NCBI RefSeq assembly: GCF_000614065.1
Contig: NZ_BAKG01000005.1
Span: 62,001 to 126,000 of the forward strand
From: Prevotella dentasini JCM 15908
GTDB lineage: Bacteria; Bacteroidota; Bacteroidia; Bacteroidales; Bacteroidaceae
Length of the DNA: 64,000 bases
Direction of reading: 5' to 3'
The translations under genes and the position numbers were made by a program. Positions 2,869 through 50,431 of this stretch are shown here, one piece after another. A model generated the notes under the pieces. The model was not told the origin of the DNA. It did no database searches and was given only the letters and a program-made list of their open reading frames with translations. Position 1 is the first letter of the stretch. The number at the start of each line of letters is the position of its first letter.

Positions 2869-3540
2869 CTATGGTCTCATTTTCTTTCCGTCTACAATCG
2901 TAATCTTCTTGCCCTCAATCTTCAGTGCGCCCTCTTTCTCAAACTCAGAAAGCACGCGCAGCAGCGAGAACTTCTGTATGCCGAACGAGTCGGCTATCTC
3001 CTGTCTCGACCGTTTCAGGTGAATCTCGTTGCTGCCCTGTTCGCCTGCCAGCTTCATGAGCATGTATGCCACCTTCTCCCGGACCGTGAAGAGACTCAAG
3101 ACCTTCATCTTATGCGTCAGGAAGACGTCTATGTCCGACAGAGTACGGATAAAATTCATGCGCAGATGCTCATCGTTGTCTATCAGCGTCTTCAGTTCCG
3201 GCGGCATCATCCGCAGCAGCTCCACCTCCCCGTCGGTCTCCACGCTCACGGGCAGGCTCGTGTCCTTGGCAAAGATAAATGCCGGTGCAACGATGTTTCC
3301 CTCGCGCAGCCGGCTCACCTCCACCTGTTTGCCCGACAGGGAGGCCATGCGGCAAATCAGCGAACCCTTCACCACGATGTCGACATATCGGCAGGGCATC
3401 CCGGCAAGGGCATAGACCTCGTGCGAAGGCAGACTGACAACCTTGCATCTTGTGTTGCCGAGGCTCATGGCTATTTCCATCGAACTCATTCCGGCAAATA
3501 GCGGACAGGCTCCCAAGGCCCTGATAATCTTCTCTTCCAT
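2869..3540 (-). CDS. Crp/Fnr family transcription regulator
   Basis: 223 residues from the chosen ATG. A cyclic-nucleotide-binding-like jelly roll fills roughly residues 10-120, followed by the long dimer helix (NFIRTLSDIDVFLTHKMKVL) and a winged helix with recognition segment RQEIADSFGIQKFSLLRVL. There is no cysteine cluster of the FNR type, so a haem or nucleotide ligand is as likely as an Fe-S centre. The upstream TTG start (3570) is less likely because a promoter lies just before the ATG. The window also holds TTGA-N6-TCAA boxes at 47994-48093, the kind of site this family binds; a link between them is only a guess. Confidence 0.85.
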   Translation of the reverse strand: MEEKIIRALGACPLFAGMSSMEIAMSLGNTRCKVVSLPSHEVYALAGMPCRYVDIVVKGSLICRMASLSGKQVEVSRLREGNIVAPAFIFAKDTSLPVSVETDGEVELLRMMPPELKTLIDNDEHLRMNFIRTLSDIDVFLTHKMKVLSLFTVREKVAYMLMKLAGEQGSNEIHLKRSRQEIADSFGIQKFSLLRVLSEFEKEGALKIEGKKITIVDGKKMRP

Positions 3541-42119: not shown

Positions 42120-42301
42120 AGCGATTGCCGGGTCAGGATAAAGGCAGCATGGTCTTGTATGAATGTGCGGCATCCTCTTTCCTCTTCCTGCGGCAGAATT
42201 GCGCTGCAGGGCTGAGGGATTGCGGCAGCCGGATGGCCGCGGCCCGTGGCGTTCCGGGGATATTCCCTTTGCTTTTCCGTCCTTTTCTCCTTTTTTATTT
42301 A

Positions 42302-42309
42302 TATCTTTG
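42302..42309 (+). promoter_or_regulatory. -7 box of the patatin-Omp85 gene
   Basis: TATATCTTTG context with TATCTTTG at 42302-42309; no TTG box at the usual distance. About 80 nt before the start codon. Confidence 0.45.
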
Positions 42310-42391
42310 CAGGCAGGAGGCGGATAGGCCGGCGCGGAAGGCTGCGCACGGGGAAGCTGCCCGAATCATCTCATTACCATACACCACTAAC

Positions 42392-44717
42392 ATGAAAGTA
42401 AGCACATTTAGGACGCGTCCCGGACGGGGGCTGCTGCAACAGATGCTTGTTGCCTTGTTTTTTCTGTCGTCGTACTCTTTGAACCTGTCTGCGCAGACGC
42501 CGGAGAGGAAGAAGGTGGCCGTCGTCCTCTGTGGCGGCGGAGCCAAGGGAGTGGCGCACATCGGTGTCCTGAAGGTTTTGGAAAAGGCCGGAATACCCAT
42601 CGACATGATTACGGGCACGTCGATGGGCAGCCTCGTAGGCGGACTCTATGCCATCGGATACGATGCCGGACAGCTCGACTCCATCGTGCAGATGCAGGAC
42701 TGGGGGATGCTGCTGTCGGACAAGGCGGACCTCACCCATCAGAGCATCGACGACCGGAGGAAGCAGAATACCTACATCATCTCGCGCGAGCTGTCGTTCC
42801 GCGGCAATTCCCTTGCCGAGACGGGCGGAATCATTCAGGGGAAGAATCTGTCGCTCCTCTTCGACAAGCTGACGGCAGGCTACCGCGACTCCGTGGATTT
42901 CAACCGGCTGCCCATTCCCTTTGCCTGCGTGGCGACGGACATTGTGGACAATTCGGAGGTGGTCTGGCACAGCGGCATCCTCGCGCAGGCCATGAGGTCG
43001 TCGATGTCCATCCCTGCCGCCTTCGCCCCGGTGCGCGTCGGCGACAGGGTGCTCGTCGACGGCGGACTGCGGAACAACTTCCCCGTCGACGTCGCCCGGC
43101 AGATGGGGGCCGACTACGTGATAGGCGTAACCCTGTCGGGCCGCGGACGCACGGCCGACGAACTGAGCAACGGAGCTTCGGTGCTGGGGCAGATAATAGA
43201 CGTCAACTGCAAGAACAAATACGACGAGAACATAGCCGCGACGGACATTCTGATACAGTGCAATACCGAGGGCTACAGTGCGGCGAGCTTCTTTCCGAGG
43301 GCGATAGACACCCTCATGGTGCGCGGCGAGCAGGAGGCGATGAAGCACTGGGACAAGCTGATGGCGCTGAAGCGTCTGCTCGGTCTGCCCGACGACTATT
43401 CTCCCGTCGTGCGGCAGCCCGCCGGTCGCCGGTCTGCCCGGGGTGATGCGGCTGCGGAAGCTCGTCTTCGAGAATGTGGAGCCGGGAGACCGGCGGTTCT
43501 TGCAGAGAAAGTTCCGCCTGCCGTCCAAGAAGACGATAACGGCAGACGAGGTGGGGCAGATAGCGGCGGCGATGAGGGTCAGCCTCTTCTATTCCGATGC
43601 CGACAGCTACTACCTCCCCGTACCCGACTCTGCCGGACTTTACGACGTCCGCATCGTCGCCAAGGAGAAGAAGCGCAGTCAGATAAACCTCGGAGTACGG
43701 TTCGACAGCGAGGAGATAGTTACGTTGCAGGCCAACGGGGGCATCCAGTTCCACAGCCGGATGCCGATGAACGCGGAGCTGACGCTGCGCCTCGGAAAGC
43801 GCATCATGGCACGCGGCGACCTGAACATGACCCCGTGGACGTTCGGCCGTATGTCGTTCTCGTATGTTTTCCGCCACAACGACATCAACATCTACGAACG
43901 GGCGAGCCGCCAGTCCAACGTTACCTACAATCAGCACACGCTGAACCTCAACCTCTTCGACTTCAATCTGCGTAACTTCAACTTCAAGATTGGTACGCGA
44001 TTCGATTACTACAACTACAACGCCCTCTTGGTCGGGGTACATTCCGAATACAGCAGCACGCCGCCAAGCGACCGCCACTACTTCGACTATCACGCCGAAA
44101 CCGACTATAACTCCGAGGACAAATGGTACTTTCCCTCGTCGGGCGCGTGCTTCAATGCTTCGTACCGGTACGTTACGAGCAACTACGTCAGCTATAACGG
44201 ACATATAGGATTCTCTGTCGTAGGGGCTTCGTGGCGGATGAACTTCCCCCTGAACAAGCGGCTGACCTTCCAGCCCATGGTGTACGGAAGGCTGATAATG
44301 GGACACCGCGGCGAGCAGGCGGAGGCAGCATCTTCGCCTGATGCTCCTGCCACAGGCTATCTCACCCCGTCTGCCCTCCGCAATTTCGTGGGAGGAGACT
44401 GGTTCAATCATTATTTTGAGAATCAGCAGCTGCCTTTTGCCGGAATAGGATTCATAGAGGCGGTGAGCGACAAGTTCGTAGCCGTACAGCTCCGCCTGCA
44501 GCAGCGGATAACACAAAACAACTATCTGCTGCTTAAGTTCGCCACCTACGAGGACGGCCACGACTTCAGCAATCTGCTGGATCACGGCCCGAAGATTGGT
44601 GTGCAGGCGGCATGGTATTATAACGTCAGCTTCCTCGGCCCGGTCGGTGCAAGTATCGGCTACTCGTCGAGGACACACTCGCCCTATGCCTTCGTAAACA
44701 TCGGCTACGAGTTCTGA
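42392..44717 (+). CDS. Patatin-like phospholipase with POTRA and Omp85-type barrel (one frame break)
   Basis: About 774 residues. Signal peptide (MLVALFFLSSYSLNLSAQ in the first 40 residues), then a patatin domain with oxyanion motif GGGAKGVAHIGVL, nucleophile GTSMGSLVGGLY and the catalytic Asp in VDGGLRNNFP. A POTRA-like unit (MRLRKLVFENVEPGDRRFLQ) leads to a surface-antigen barrel ending AFVNIGYEF. This is the PlpD/RssA-type V-like secretion layout seen in one protein across Bacteroidetes. The frame breaks near 43421; here one G too many gives the best join. The start at 42392 follows a TATCTTTG box. Confidence 0.9.
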
Positions 44718-44741
44718 GATGGCCGTCCCGTCCGCCTGCCG

Positions 44742-45794
44742 TCAGGGCTTTATCTCCCTGATGACGCGGCACGGGTTTCCGGCTGCGACCACATTGCCGG
44801 GAATGTCGTGCGTAACGACCGAGCCGGCACCGATGGTGGTGTTGTCTCCTATCGTTACGCCGGGCAGCACGACCACGTTTCCGCCTATCCACACATTGTT
44901 GCCTATGCGGATAGGCAGCGCGTAGCCGATGTCGGCGTTGCGCTGGACGACATTCAGCGGATGGCCGGCAGTGTAGAAACTGCAGTTGGGAGCAATGTAG
45001 ACGTTGTCTCCGAACGTTACCTTTGCCTCGTCGAGAATCACCATGTTGGTGTTGGCAAAGAAGTCTTCGCCCACCTCTATGTTATATCCGTAGTCGCAGA
45101 AGAAGGGTGCGATAATCTTGAAGTTGCTTCCAGTCTTGCCCAACAGGCGTCGCAGGCGTTTCGTGCGCTCTTCCGTGAGCAGCGGAGAGAGCCTGTTCAG
45201 CTGGAAGCACTCTTCCTCGCAGGGCTTCAGGTCGGCCAGTACCTCCGGGTCGCAGGCTAAGTAGGGCAGTCCCGCAGCCTGTTTCTCGCGTTCCGTCATA
45301 CTGGTTATCAGCTGATAGGCGAGCCTCGGCGCGCCATCGTCAAGATGGATGACGCCGCAGAGAATATAGCCCAGACGCGACAGGGCCTTTTGCATGGGAA
45401 GGTTGTCGGCATGTGTGTCGATGCGGATATTGTCGGTATGGCGTGCGCAGAACCGCGTTATCTCTGCCACGACGCCGCGTGTTCCGTCTGCCGAGGCCAC
45501 CCGGTGAACGACTCCGTATGGCTCGGTATTGAGCCAGTCGCCCTGCTCTATGTGGGCGTAGGTAGGCTCTTTGCCGAGAATGAAGGCAAAGGTGGCGACG
45601 GGAGCCGGGTCGTCGGTCTCCGGCAGCAGGAGGTAGGAATTGCCCCTCCTGATGTCGTTCTCTATACATTCACGGCCGGGATGTCCGTCCGTCCACTGAT
45701 GAAGGTTGCCCGAAGCCTTCATCTTCTTCCTGCCGTTTTCTATCAGCCGCAGAACGGTGTCAAGGTCAGCGGCTGTTGCCTTGCGTACTTTCAT
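44742..45794 (-). CDS. Fusion: GNAT acetyltransferase and maltose/sugar O-acetyltransferase
   Basis: 350 residues. The first 160 form a GNAT fold (MKVRKATAADLDTVLRLIENG, GVVHRVASADGTRGV, NIRIDTHADNLPMQKALSRLGY, then a CGVIHLDDGAPRLAYQ end). The second half starts MTEREKQAAGLPYLACD, the usual N-terminus of a free-standing Maa enzyme, and carries the left-handed beta-helix (NCSFYTAGHPLN, PIRIGNNVWIGGNVVVLPGV, VVTHDIPGNVVAAGNPCRVI). Both domains look complete. It lies 6 bp after aguB, so it is probably in the putrescine operon; acetylation of an amine is possible but unproven. Confidence 0.88.
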   Translation of the reverse strand: MKVRKATAADLDTVLRLIENGRKKMKASGNLHQWTDGHPGRECIENDIRRGNSYLLLPETDDPAPVATFAFILGKEPTYAHIEQGDWLNTEPYGVVHRVASADGTRGVVAEITRFCARHTDNIRIDTHADNLPMQKALSRLGYILCGVIHLDDGAPRLAYQLITSMTEREKQAAGLPYLACDPEVLADLKPCEEECFQLNRLSPLLTEERTKRLRRLLGKTGSNFKIIAPFFCDYGYNIEVGEDFFANTNMVILDEAKVTFGDNVYIAPNCSFYTAGHPLNVVQRNADIGYALPIRIGNNVWIGGNVVVLPGVTIGDNTTIGAGSVVTHDIPGNVVAAGNPCRVIREIKP

Positions 45795-45800
45795 AAGTCC

Positions 45801-46683
45801 TTAGTCTATAAACCGGCGTGTGATGTCGGTGTACTTGTCTATGCGGCGGTCGCGCAGGAACGGCCACCATCGGCGTACCTGTTCGCTGTGGTGCAGGTCT
45901 ATGCTGACGATGGTGCTTTCCTCGTCGTCGTCGCAGGCGCGGTAGAGCAGCTCGCCCTGCGGCCCGGCAACGAAACTGCTTCCCCAGAACTGTATGCCGT
46001 TGGTCTGGCCGCTCGGGTCTGGCTCGTGTCCGATGCGGTTGACGGCCACGACCGGCAGTCCGTTGGCGACGGCATGACCGCGCATGACGGTCGTCCACGC
46101 TTCGCGCTGCCGCTGCTGTTCGTCGCTGCTGTCGCTGCTCTCGTACCGATGGCAGTAGGATAGATGAGAATTTCTGCCCCCTGCAGGGCCATCAGCCGGG
46201 CAGCCTCGGGATACCACTGGTCCCAGCAGACAAGCACGCCGAGCCGTCCCACGCTCGTGTCGATGGGATGGAAGCCGAGGTCGCCGGGCGTAAAGTAGAA
46301 TTTCTCGTAGTAGGCCGGGTCGTCGGGAATGTGCATCTTGCGGTACTTTCCGGCTATGCTGCCGTCTTTCTCGAATACGACGGCCGTGTTATGGTAGAGT
46401 CCCGGAGCGCGACGCTCAAACAGCGAGGCGACGATGACAACCTTCAGCTCGCGTGCCAGTGCCCCATAGTGTCGGTAGACGGCCCGGGTACGGGTTCGGC
46501 AAGGTCGAAGTTGCCGACCTCCTCTACCTGACAGAAGTAGAGAGAGTTGTGAAGCTCTTGCAGTACGATGAGTTCTGCGCCCCGCTGTGCAAGGTCGGTG
46601 ATGCCCTCGGTGAGCCGCTTGATGTTATTGGCAACGTCTGCCGTATTGTGCAGTTGCAGGAATCCTATTTTCAGTTCTTTCAT
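45801..46683 (-). CDS. aguB: N-carbamoylputrescine amidase (two frame breaks)
   Basis: About 294 residues. It hydrolyses N-carbamoylputrescine to putrescine, CO2 and ammonia. A nitrilase-fold enzyme with its catalytic triad visible: Glu in LIVLQELHNSLYF, Lys in GKYRKMHIPDD and Cys in GVLVCWDQWYPEAAR. Breaks near 46457 (one C) and 46146 (one base) are mended to give STDHYGALARELK and YPTAIGYESSDSS. The start MKELKIGFLQL is the family N-terminus. Downstream of aguA by 74 bp and 6 bp before the fusion acetyltransferase. Confidence 0.92.
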
Positions 46684-46757
46684 TGTTGGGTGATGGTTGT
46701 TGGATGATGGGTGTGGATGAATGGGTGGACGGCGGGCCGGTGCCGTCGTCTCGTCGG

Positions 46758-47800
46758 TCAGGCGAGACAGCCTTTCGGCAGCTGCATGGTCAGGCAGTGG
46801 AGCGAGCCGTGCTGCCTGACGACGGTTGTAGCGTCTATTCCGATGATGTCCCGGTCGGGGAAGGCCTGCGCGATGGTGTCCATGGCGCGTTGGTCGTGCC
46901 CGGGTTGCCCGTAGGTCGGCACGATGACGGCCCCGTTGATGACGAGATAGTTGGCATAGGTAGCCGGAAGCCGGTCGCCGTCGTCGTAGATGGGCGACGG
47001 GATTGGGAGCTTCAGGCAGCGGTAGGGCTTCCCGTCGAGGGTGCGCAGGCCGTGTGCCTGCTTGTCGAGGGCGCACAGGTCGTCGTAGTGTGGGTCGGAA
47101 GGGTCGTCGCAGCTTATATATAATAAGGTGTCGTTGGGCGCGCACCGCATGATGGTATCTATGTGTCCGTCGGTGTCGTCGCCCTGCAGTTCGCCGTGGT
47201 CTATCCATACGACGCGTTCGAGATGGGGGAACAGCAGCAGCAGACGCTTTTCCAGTTCGTCCTTTCCGAGGGGTTGGTTGCGGTGGGGAGCCGTCAGGCA
47301 GGCGGTGGTGGTGAAGAGCGACCTTGCCCCGTCGCTCTCTATGGACCCTCCTTCGAGCACAAAGTCCTTGTGATTCTCCAAAGGAGCGTTGAAGGCTCCT
47401 GCCCTGTAGAGCTGTCGGTTGACGGCATTGTCCTTGTCGGCAGCGAACTTCTTGCCCCAGCCGTTGAAGCAGAAGTCCATCAGGTGGATTGGGGCGAAGA
47501 CGCCTGCCGCATCGTTTTCCGCCACGACGGCAACGGGCGCGACGTCCCGTGCCAAGTGTCGTTGTTGTCGCAGGCGTAAATCCGTATCCTGTCCATCTGG
47601 CCGGCGTCGAGCCGCCGTGCCATCAGCGACCGTACATGCCCGGGATTTCTTGCTGCAATCAGGAGCTTCTCGTATCGCGTAATGGCGTCTGCCATCTGCA
47701 GGTAGGTCTCGGTAATCTCTTCCAGATAGGGTTTCCAGTCGGTCTCCTCGTGTGGCCATATTATCATTACGCCACTCTGCTCCTCCCATTCGGCAGACAT
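46758..47800 (-). CDS. aguA: Agmatine deiminase (one frame break)
   Basis: About 347 residues. It turns agmatine into N-carbamoylputrescine. The start MSAEWEEQSGVMIIWPHEETDW, NNDTWARD after mending, FNGWGKKF, ENHKDFVLEGGSIESDG, WIDHGELQGDDTDGHID and the catalytic Cys in GSLHCLTMQLP are all present. The break near 47556 is mended by one G (TTGGGCACGGGAC), giving the family motif NDTWARD. First gene of an operon with aguB, forming a complete agmatine-to-putrescine path; an arginine decarboxylase is not in the window. Confidence 0.94.
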
Positions 47801-47901
47801 TCTGAATGTGTATGGATTGTTTCTGTTCACTTTCTTTTCCGTATAATAAGATGATAGCCGTCCATTCGCCGGTTTTCGGAGGCGGATGGCCGGTGTGTCT
47901 G

Positions 47902-47932
47902 CAAAGTTATGAAAAAAGATTGTTATTGGCAA
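47902..47932 (-). promoter_or_regulatory. Promoter of the aguA-aguB operon
   Basis: Minus strand TTG (47932-47930), 20 nt, TAACTTTG (47909-47902). Confidence 0.75.
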
Positions 47933-47993
47933 TGAACGGTGGTCTTTTTACAGAGAAGACTCCAGAATAGGGTGGCAGCAGGTTCCGTGGGGC

Positions 47994-48093
47994 TTGATGC
48001 AGGTCAATCCGGGGGACGTACAGGCGTCAGGGAAGGCTTGACTTGTGTCAATCCGGAGTGTTGACGCAGGTCAAAATGCTTGATGGGAGTCAA
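47994..48093. promoter_or_regulatory. Array of four Crp/Fnr-type binding sites
   Basis: Four 14-bp dyads of form TTGAY-N4-GTCAA: 47994-48007 (TTGATGCAGGTCAA), 48038-48051 (TTGACTTGTGTCAA), 48061-48074 (TTGACGCAGGTCAA), 48080-48093 (TTGATGGGAGTCAA). This is the 5-4-5 plan of FNR/HcpR-class sites. They lie between the divergent aguA and small-ORF promoters, with centres about 44, 23 and 19 bp apart. Confidence 0.75.
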
Positions 48094-48131
48094 AAATAGG
48101 CGGATTTTCGGCTTATATCGGTGATTGAATT

Positions 48132-48162
48132 TTGTGGCGAATAGGAAAAGATGCTAACTTTG
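48132..48162 (+). promoter_or_regulatory. Promoter of the small transcript
   Basis: TTG (48132-48134), 20 nt, TAACTTTG (48155-48162); the start of transcription should be near 48169. The nearest Crp/Fnr-type site is centred about 82 bp upstream of it. Confidence 0.75.
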
Positions 48163-48348
48163 CAAGCGTAAAACGAAGAGGAAATTTTCAGGATAACAAG
48201 CCGTCGCGACAAGGGCACGCCCCGTTCAGCAGGGTAGGAATAAGGCTCAATAAAGGCAGGGTCGGATAGTCAGGGCACCAGTCTCAATAGGACACACGAG
48301 TTTAGGTAAGAAGATTGTATAACAAAAGAACAAGAAAGGAACACTATT

Positions 48349-48453
48349 ATGAAGACGAGAATGACAAGAAAGGAGACAACCAAGAACATCCTCCGCTATC
48401 TGGTCAATGTTCTTCGGATGTATAATGAAGGTCGCATGAATTGTCCGGCATAG
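48349..48453 (+). CDS. 34-residue basic small protein of unknown function
   Basis: ATG at 48349, stop TAG at 48451. The peptide begins MKTRMTRKETTKNILRYLVN and has an amphipathic helix with a basic face; no signal peptide or membrane helix. AAGAAAGGA lies 8-16 bases before the start. It sits about 180 nt into a transcript with its own promoter and terminator. The long leader has G/C-rich pieces (GGGCACGCCCC) that could fold. I do not recognise the family; the transcript may act mainly as a regulatory RNA. Confidence 0.55.
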   Translation: MKTRMTRKETTKNILRYLVNVLRMYNEGRMNCPA

Positions 48454-48541
48454 TCCGGGACAGCCGTCCGGAAGCAAGCAACGGTGCTTCGGGCGACATT
48501 CAGACAGGAAAAGTATAGAATTTAGAGAGAATAAAAAAGGT

Positions 48542-48578
48542 ATCGGACCATAGCTTCTGGGCTTTGGTCCGATTTTCG
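48542..48578 (+). terminator. Terminator of the small transcript
   Basis: ATCGGACCA...TGGTCCGAT with a 14-nt loop, followed by TTTCGTT. Confidence 0.8.
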
Positions 48579-48748
48579 TTAGATTGTCCTGAGGTTGCAG
48601 GAGGAGGATTTTATTATGATGAAATAAGTTTACAAGACCATTGCCTGTAGGCGGATGGGCAGCCTGTTGCCTTATAATCAGTGTGAGGAAACTATATTGC
48701 TGTTATTCAGGTAGTTATGCTTTATGTTTTGAAATAGTTGCTTTGATG

Positions 48749-48840
48749 TTGCTAAAGTGCCGCTTTCAGTGTCTGGAAAAGCCGCTTTCGCATGCTCAAA
48801 GTGGCTTGTTGGCAGGGTGAAGGTGGCACTTTGGCCTGTA
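48749..48840. repeat. Dispersed 23-bp-type repeat, copy d (4 exact-period units)
   Basis: Units 48749-48771, 48772-48794, 48795-48817 and 48818-48840, all exactly 23 bp, each with an AAAG-TGCCG-CTTTC-like dyad core. This is the clearest copy of the family. The rest of 48579-49092 and 49101-49208 holds no convincing gene. Confidence 0.8.
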
Positions 48841-49092
48841 GGCGGTGTCGGAGTTGATGAAAAAGATTTACACTTCAGGAGTACGGGCTGGGTAGGACGG
48901 CCGGCCGGACAGGCATGGGCAGACAGACCCGGTTCCTATGCAGCGGTATGAGAGTGTGTGCCCGGGGGTGGCATCCATAGTTGCCTGTGCAGCGGCAGAC
49001 GGCAGGCAGTATTGTGTCTGTGGCAGGAGCGGTAATCCTGTTTGTTTGTTAAATATTGTAGGGAAACCTGTGTTTATTTCGGAGAATAATCG

Positions 49093-49100
49093 TATCTTTG
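49093..49100 (+). promoter_or_regulatory. -7 box of pepT
   Basis: TATCTTTG about 110 bp before the pepT start; no good TTG box at the usual distance. Confidence 0.45.
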
Positions 49101-49208
49101 CCATTGATAGTACATGTGTGGCGGTTCTGGCGGCGGCTTGCCCCGCCGGGACAACCATCAGCGGCATGACAGAAAACCAAAAACAAATATCTAAATTCCA
49201 ATAGCAAT

Positions 49209-50431
49209 ATGGAAATAGCAGAGAGATTTATTAACTATACTAAGTTTGACACACAGTCGGCTGAAGATTCGCAGACTGTGCCAAGTACCCCCAAGCAGCT
49301 CATCTTCGCAAAATACCTGAAGGAAGAACTCGAGCGCGAGGAGCTGAAAGATGTAGAAATGGACGAGATGGGCTACATTTACGCCACTCTGCCGTCCAAT
49401 TCAAAGAAGAAAATTCCTACTATCGGATTCATTTCTCATTACGATACGGCACTTGATGCGAGCGGAGCTAACATCAAGGCACGCATTGTAAGGAACTATG
49501 ACGGGGGAGACATACAGCTCAATCCCAATATGGTATCGTCTCCGGCGATGTTCCCCGAACTGCTGGAGCATAAGGGCGAAGACCTCATCGTTACCGACGG
49601 TACGACCCTGTTGGGCGCAGACGACAAGGCAGGCATTGCCGAAATAGTGCAGGCTATGTGCTATCTGCGCGACCATCCCGAAATAGAGCACGGCGATATA
49701 CGCGTAGGTTTCAATCCCGATGAGGAGATTGGAATGGGTGCCCACCACTTCGACGTAGAGAAGTTTGGCTGCGACTGGGGCTACACCATTGACGGCGGCG
49801 ACCTCGGCGAACTGGAATACGAGAACTTCAATGCCGCAGGGGCAAAGGTGTTCATTCATGGCGTCAGCGTCCATACGGGCTACGCAAAGGGCAAGATGGT
49901 CAACGCAAGCCGTCTGGCATGTGAGTTCAATGCCATGATTCCCGATACCGAGATTCCCGAAGCTACCGAAGGATATCAGGCTTCTACCATCTGCTCGGGA
50001 TAGACAGCCGCTGCGAGGAGGCCAAGCTGAGCTATATCATCCGCGACCACGACCGCGACCGCTTCGAAGACCGCAAGCGGTTCATGCAGAACTGCGTCAG
50101 CCAGATGAACGAGAAGTATGGCGAGGGTACCGTAGAACTGAAGATGAACGACCAGTACTACAACATGAAGGAGAAGATAGACCCGAACATGCACGTCATA
50201 GAGCTTGTGCTGAAGGCCATGCAGCAGTGTGCCATTGCCCCGAAGGTACAGCCTATCCGCGGCGGTACGGACGGCGCGCAGCTCTCTTTCAAGGGTCTGC
50301 CCTGTCCGAACATCTTTGCCGGTGGTGTCAACTTCCACGGCCCGTATGAGTTTGTGTCCATTCAGGTGATGGAAAAGGCCATGCAGGTCATCATAAACAT
50401 TTGTCAGCTGACGGCGGAGTTTAACGATTGA
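49209..50431 (+). CDS. pepT: Peptidase T, tripeptide aminopeptidase (one frame break)
   Basis: About 407 residues, family length. A zinc-dependent M20 peptidase that removes the N-terminal residue of tripeptides in the cytoplasm. Metal ligands show in [55 protein letters not shown] and C-terminal [22 protein letters not shown]. The frame breaks near 49979: CAGGCTTC for CAGGGCTTC; the extra G gives [18 protein letters not shown]. The start [17 protein letters not shown] is the family N-terminus. Confidence 0.95.

Follow-up and report, generated by a model that had tools for sequence, protein, structure and literature searches.

Four boxes of the form TTGAY-N4-RTCAA are clustered within 100 bp in a 64,000-nucleotide stretch of the Prevotella dentasini JCM 15908 genome, the whole of which we analysed and refer to as the window. 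We consider it probable (roughly 0.7) that this array works from upstream as a tandem activating element for the transcript of a 34-amino-acid microprotein, that it is read by a Crp/Fnr protein encoded beside lepA, and that it belongs to a Prevotella-wide regulon of small transcripts. In other words, the boxes are probably a genus-wide on-switch for tiny transcripts, here one for a 34-residue protein and elsewhere small regulatory RNAs. The sites, their geometry, their conservation, the coding selection on the microprotein and the presence of the candidate regulator are established by computation. The source assembly comprises 2.55 Mb in 41 contigs and is 85.85% complete. A literature search that had most subscription papers outside its scope found no description of the array, of the microprotein family or of the candidate regulator.

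The box array and its promoter

The boxes, which as dyads are assigned to neither strand, occupy positions 47994-48007 (TTGATGCAGGTCAA), 48038-48051 (TTGACTTGTGTCAA), 48061-48074 (TTGACGCAGGTCAA) and 48080-48093 (TTGATGGGAGTCAA), with start-to-start spacings of 44, 23 and 19 bp, and an A-rich stretch directly follows the last, proximal box. They are the only four exact matches in the 64-kb window; the four dyads reported by the first-pass annotation are all in place, and their agreement with the TTGAY-N4-RTCAA dyad argues for Crp/Fnr-type operators, as it had proposed. The array is far beyond chance: shuffles of the whole window contain a mean of 0.39 boxes and none of 100 reaches four, and in 20,000 dinucleotide shuffles restricted to the 200 bp around the array (47940-48139) a single box turned up 37 times and never more than one. 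Across the whole assembly, 24 boxes compare with 7 for the backward pattern. Five of the boxes in this genome are no more than about 600 bp from a contig end, as though they adjoined repeats (C14:84, C17:23360, C25:233, C26:539 and C41:197803); no rRNA was found beside these five, and the idea that they suggested, rRNA operons as targets, was dropped after Rfam found no rRNA in 60 box-bearing loci. We also considered a fifth, degenerate box in the 44-bp gap that separates the first two boxes and rejected it, as by eye the gap holds no more than a half-site.

Downstream of the array, a Bacteroidota-type promoter for the small transcript can be read on the plus strand at 48131-48162, with a -33 element TTTG at 48131-48134, which begins 51 nt after the start of the proximal box, and a -7 element TAACTTTG at 48155-48162. 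A divergent promoter-like element on the minus strand (47902-47932) points toward aguA; its -7 element TAACTTTG covers plus-strand positions 47902-47909 and its -33 TTG covers 47930-47932, and the closest box start is 75 nt off, not 51. The two divergent consensus promoters of the earlier annotation are therefore present in the Bacteroidota sense (TTTG / TAnnTTTG) and not as sigma-70 consensus promoters, a scan for which over 47000-49500 gave 3 matches against 2.6 expected, with none at the two promoter positions.

The small transcript is predicted to run from about 48167 to about 48580. Its start is placed by analogy with the FopS small RNA loci described below, and this start sets the box centres at about -166.5, -122.5, -99.5 and -80.5. 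Near its end, on the plus strand, a hairpin followed by a T-rich run at 48542-48573 (48558-48571; longer arms 48542-48554 / 48561-48573) is a likely intrinsic terminator. The RNA structure of the whole transcript is not notable (z -1.13). As for identity with FopS, the window contains no Rfam match and the transcript does not reach the RF04319 gathering score.

The combination of boxes and promoter is found throughout the genus. We defined a composite site as a box, 33-39 nt, TTG, 18-23 nt and TANNTTTG, and we took Prevotella in the GTDB sense. All 150 genus genomes contain such a composite, and none has a match to the backward control; in the family the composite is present in 86 of 151 genomes and 18 of 30 genera, where the control gave one match. 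Arrays are conserved as well. The check that the first-pass annotation had proposed, a scan of related Prevotella, comes out in its favour: 14 of 35 relatives from the same genus have a two-box array, and in a larger set 85 of 398 genus genomes combine two boxes with a -33 TTG, the backward-pattern control being 0 in both cases. The 19-bp spacing seen between the last two boxes of the window is the commonest in the genus, accounting for 91 of 112 neighbouring pairs when 18-24 bp is allowed. At loci picked by boxes alone, the distance from box start to promoter is 50-52 nt in 6 of 14 pairs of this genome, and at the relatives' array loci it is 51-54 nt in 11 of 16 pairs. The A-rich stretch past the proximal box is also recurrent, with A at +2 in 82% and at +3 in 86% of 180 composites. 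The proximal box keeps a constant distance to the promoter, its centre being at about -80.5, which may be a helical position suited to class I Crp-type activation. A second palindrome, TGTKTGCGNAMACA, which mostly overlaps the -33 element, appears in 41 of the 180 composites against 0.47 expected (L046, L062 and L111 are examples); it is absent from the array in the window and might be the site of a second regulator.

Products behind the box promoters

The small transcript carries an open reading frame of 34 codons that was missed by the first-pass annotation. It lies on the plus strand at 48349-48453 (stop included), encodes MKTRMTRKETTKNILRYLVNVLRMYNEGRMNCPA and has the purine-rich sequence AAGAAAGGA just upstream. 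Similar frames follow the arrays of relatives and share the C-terminal motif Y-N-x-G-R-[VMI]-N, after which we call them the YNxGR family. In this family the pooled pN/pS is 0.26 (27 distinct coding sequences), and differences by codon position number 514/423/1366 over 103 non-independent pairs, an excess at the third position. These two observations make the protein the conserved entity of the YNxGR loci, and the encoded microprotein is under purifying selection. Neither Pfam nor NCBIfam gave a family above its cut-off for three members. The 34-codon frame is intact amid several neighbouring genes that look split into two frames: patatin-like (42125-44717), aguB-like (45801-46680), aguA (46758-47800) and pepT (49209-50431). 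So many apparent splits in 8 kb (42125-50431) suggest that they are assembly indel errors and not true pseudogenes.

To say that all array loci have boxes is circular for most of them, because they were fetched for carrying boxes. The sole test of the link between array and microprotein from the protein side is a search of the 150 genus genomes with a YNxGR profile, built from 23 members and run without reference to boxes at E <= 0.01, together with the 30 loci examined after it. The profile matches in 40 of the 150 genomes; the 30 examined matches are those with fetched loci, and the ten left out have E values from 2e-7 to 0.007. At least two exact boxes precede 27 of the 30, and the other three have one exact box and one with a single mismatch. 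All 14 matches from genomes that supplied the profile have at least two exact boxes within about 420 nt. The remaining 16 comprise 13 with at least two exact boxes and three with one exact box and a near-match, and 13 of these 16 come from genomes that the array search had missed (ten with at least two exact boxes, three with one and a near-match). At one locus (L415) the boxes precede a second small frame in the same stretch, and tandems of two different small frames, SWxES-type and YNxGR-like, lie behind one array at L262, L300 and L252/L415.

YNxGR proteins are one product among several. Behind 96 array promoters we find 29 predicted membrane microproteins, 27 YNxGR, eight 'SWxES', four 'MDxLI-KNQ', five secreted proteins of about 110 aa, one YGEA, one aguA, seven others and 14 with nothing found; the 96 rows partly overlap or come from near relatives, and the classes are regular-expression pattern calls. 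For many composite sites no product could be recognised behind the promoter. In several species, transcripts of membrane microproteins under a box lie upstream of ksgA (L012, L013, L111).

Rfam places the FopS small RNA (RF04319) right after the box promoter in 11 of 60 box-bearing loci (L117, L145, L112, L109, L133, L142, L130, L129, L056, L063 and L015), a proportion that is not a rate because the loci were partly chosen for having no evident coding gene, and directly behind 14 of the 180 composites in fetched loci. Its 5' end lies 5 nt past the -7 element, which places the box centre at about -80.5. In 14 of 16 copies the box starts at -86 to -88 of FopS; the other two are each the second copy of a tandem. 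At L109 and L117 this second copy lies 181 nt further on and has no box. The FopS locus of the P. dentasini genome itself (L145) has a box promoter, and it and the window locus are the only two in this genome with a recognised product behind the composite site. Transfer RNAs were seen by Rfam in two of the 60 loci, and ARAGORN found none in a different, overlapping set of 20; at L058 a tandem of three tRNA genes lies right behind the box promoter.

Candidate readers of the boxes and the place of aguA

The most likely reader, judging from sequence comparisons, is a Crp/Fnr protein of about 200 aa that is encoded outside the window (G000:C22:4706-5299), directly downstream of lepA. PgRsp of P. 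gingivalis, with 207 aa (PMC6955866), was considered as a possible orthologue. At this locus (L303, G000:C22:2500-7500) the gene follows lepA, which encodes elongation factor 4, in the same direction. When the Crp/Fnr proteins of 11 genomes are grouped, the lepA-linked one is present in 11 of 11, and at E <= 1e-40 it is present in 142 of 150 genus genomes and 67 of 68 near-complete ones; lepA adjoins it in 80 of 80 named loci. The eight genus genomes lacking it at this threshold all have sites, and one of them is near-complete (G110). Its last helix carries P-E-T-L-S-R, with Pro-Glu at the two specificity positions (TPETLSRVR, aligned to the published rule by eye). A Glu at the specificity position of the recognition helix goes with TTGA-type sites, and HcpR1 of the delta-proteobacteria, which has Ser or Pro and then Glu, reads TTGACnnnnGTCAA (PMC1274295). 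The lepA-linked protein has this pair, and the HcpR-like protein at 2869-3540 does not (K-F).

The distribution of the regulator also follows that of the sites. At E < 1e-24, 80 of the 151 family genomes have both, 14 have the regulator without a site, six a site without the regulator and 51 neither, and some of the 14 and six discordant genomes are incomplete assemblies. Taken by majority, the 30 genera divide into 15 with both, two with the regulator only, none with the site only and 13 with neither (p 1.8e-6, at a cut-off of 1e-24 that was picked after the table was known; a cut-off of 1e-40 gives p 4e-16 over non-independent genomes). The predicted structure is that of a Crp-like protein which stops at the recognition helix and lacks the usual wing (mean pLDDT 77, 26 close sequences), and the best PDB match is 3DN7 of Cytophaga hutchinsonii (E 1.5e-11). 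Pfam HTH_Crp_2 did not report the protein. Three cysteines, C52, C87 and C162, are invariant in 26 orthologues. Autoregulation was considered and set aside: no exact box lies within 300 nt before the start in 11 of 11 genomes, so none is seen.

The first-pass annotation had suggested instead that the Crp/Fnr protein at 2869-3540 on the minus strand binds the array and that aguA and the small transcript belong to a nitric-oxide or nitrosative regulon. An HcpR-like protein is indeed encoded there, since its best solved match is 9DAY (E 1.1e-31), which is P. gingivalis HcpR (PMC12750200). Moreover, TTGACnnnnGTCAA is the published HcpR1 motif in delta-proteobacteria (PMC1274295), and the B. thetaiotaomicron small RNA locus snoA sits between hcpR and hcp (PMC13370916). 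However, in the recognition helix of the protein (IQKFSLLRVL) the specificity position, at which the alignment to 9DAY shows Gln in P. gingivalis HcpR, is occupied by Phe instead of Glu, and HcpR2, the Bacteroides-type HcpR, has the motif GTAACnnnnGTTAC (PMC1274295), which the array boxes do not match. A site of the HcpR2 consensus, GTAACATTTGTTAC, is present 70 nt before hcp in a relative (L180 of G085), with an HcpR-like gene nearby. Neither hcp nor another nitrosative-stress gene, as expected of an HcpR2 target, adjoins the array, whose neighbours are aguA and the microprotein, and none of eight hcp upstream regions (300 nt) of relatives contains a box. All 150 genus genomes have box promoters, against 44 (31 of the 68 near-complete ones) that encode a relative of the 2869-3540 protein at E <= 1e-20; some of these relatives are only 35-42% identical and may form another subgroup. 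Among the 11 genomes, hcp was not found in that of P. dentasini (86% complete), G004 and G069; the latter two (99% complete) have box promoters without hcp or an HcpR relative, and G004 has an array and microprotein as well. HcpR was rejected as the reader on its helix, its distribution and the hcp promoters; the 2869-3540 protein is probably not what reads the boxes, and the nitrosative regulon is very unlikely. A redox signal in a wider sense is possible.

Other Crp/Fnr proteins deserve consideration, such as a 1zyb-like protein on contig C33 of the same genome (helix ESRLNVSRLL) or one missing from an assembly that is incomplete to this degree. The 1zyb-like group is present in at least ten of the 11 genomes examined, so that presence alone cannot separate it from the lepA-linked protein. 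Its helix, however, aligned by eye, has no Glu at the TTGA-reading position, whereas the lepA-linked protein has this Glu and tracks the sites across genera in a distribution test that was run on it alone; we regard a reader of this other kind as unlikely. An orthologue of Cur (BT4338), the master regulator of carbohydrate use, has in its favour that Cur is Crp-type and activates at least one small RNA, MasB (PMC10994844), and that small RNAs of B. thetaiotaomicron lie near Cur sites (PMC10294740). Yet the Cur consensus, wwwTATGTTnTAnAACATAwww, is a different motif (PMC6989115), a Cur-like pattern occurs in one of the 180 composites, and the array sequence does not match the Cur operator TATGTTnTAnAACATA, so that the chance of a Cur orthologue as reader appears slight in the extreme. 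The idea that the lepA-linked protein is itself the Cur orthologue was likewise abandoned, the Cur consensus arguing against the site in a comparison made by operator alone.

A further alternative concerns the target and not the reader: the array might mainly control aguA and hence polyamine synthesis, with the microprotein transcript as a bystander. The aguA gene (agmatine deiminase, minus strand, 46758-47800) lies in two overlapping frames, its ATG at 47800 being in the frame 47480-47932 and the remainder in the frame 46758-47789. Of 30 microprotein loci, 15 have aguA in the vicinity, and in G444 the gene stands directly behind an array (L295, with a box-to-promoter offset of 74), which makes co-control possible in some species. 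In contrast, the other 15 loci, among them a few truncated at a contig end, showed no aguA nearby, and the offset on the aguA side varies (75, 74, 73, 74, 104, 85, 152) or no promoter is recognised, whereas on the microprotein side it is about 51. Because of this variable distance we rate aguA as a secondary or passive target, and its control as the main role of the array seems quite improbable. The first-pass annotation had assigned the array to the aguA operon and/or the small transcript; the constant geometry on the microprotein side bears out the second assignment and leaves the first weak.

A small-transcript regulon and its relation to known systems

In the reading that we favour, a Crp/Fnr-type dimer on the proximal box, centred at about -80.5, would contact RNA polymerase from upstream in a class-I-like manner. 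A box at such a distance would be an activating position by analogy with proteobacterial Crp; we infer activation rather than repression. Dimers on the boxes further upstream, for which 19 bp is the typical spacing, may add occupancy or cooperativity. The window locus would then belong to a regulon that acts mostly on small transcripts, namely several microprotein families and FopS small RNAs.

More tentatively, and with somewhat less than even confidence, we speculate that Prevotella has a dedicated small-transcript regulon, in which an orphan, wing-less Crp/Fnr activator of the lepA operon uses FNR-type boxes, single or in cooperative 19-bp tandem arrays, to switch on microproteins and FopS jointly. 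One signal would thereby be converted into many tiny protein and RNA effectors, with YNxGR, which has the strongest array, as the main output. The neighbourhood of lepA suggests that this signal is perhaps tied to translation or starvation. Few regulators of small RNAs and microproteins have been described in Bacteroidota of the gut and mouth. The present analysis offers a regulon open to testing: its operator, the promoter geometry, a candidate for the regulator and a target list that includes one Rfam small RNA family. It also cautions against taking FNR-type boxes in Prevotella as HcpR or nitric-oxide sites by default.

Among known systems, FNR and HcpR1-type operators (TTGAT-N4-ATCAA, TTGAC-N4-GTCAA) resemble the boxes in sequence, dyad symmetry and position upstream of a promoter. 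The Prevotella boxes differ in being two to five in tandem, typically 19 bp apart, before a Bacteroidota promoter, and in having microproteins and FopS small RNAs as targets, not hcp or respiratory genes. The candidate regulator is like 3DN7 and other short Crp/Fnr-like proteins, which also end shortly past the recognition helix, although its identity to 3DN7 is low. The Cur (BT4338) regulon likewise combines a Crp-type regulator with small RNA targets but has another operator consensus. In the SnoA-HcpR-hcp locus of B. thetaiotaomicron, another member of the Bacteroidota, a Crp/Fnr regulator is also linked to a small transcript; SnoA is described as nitrite-induced and located at hcp (PMC13370916), whereas the window transcript lies beside aguA, has no HcpR2-type sites and encodes a microprotein. 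A parallel in promoter geometry is FopS, a paralogous small RNA family of the Bacteroidetes (RF04319), whose box lies at the same distance as that of the window locus in 14 of the 16 copies, whereas the window transcript is longer, encodes a protein and has no RF04319 match.
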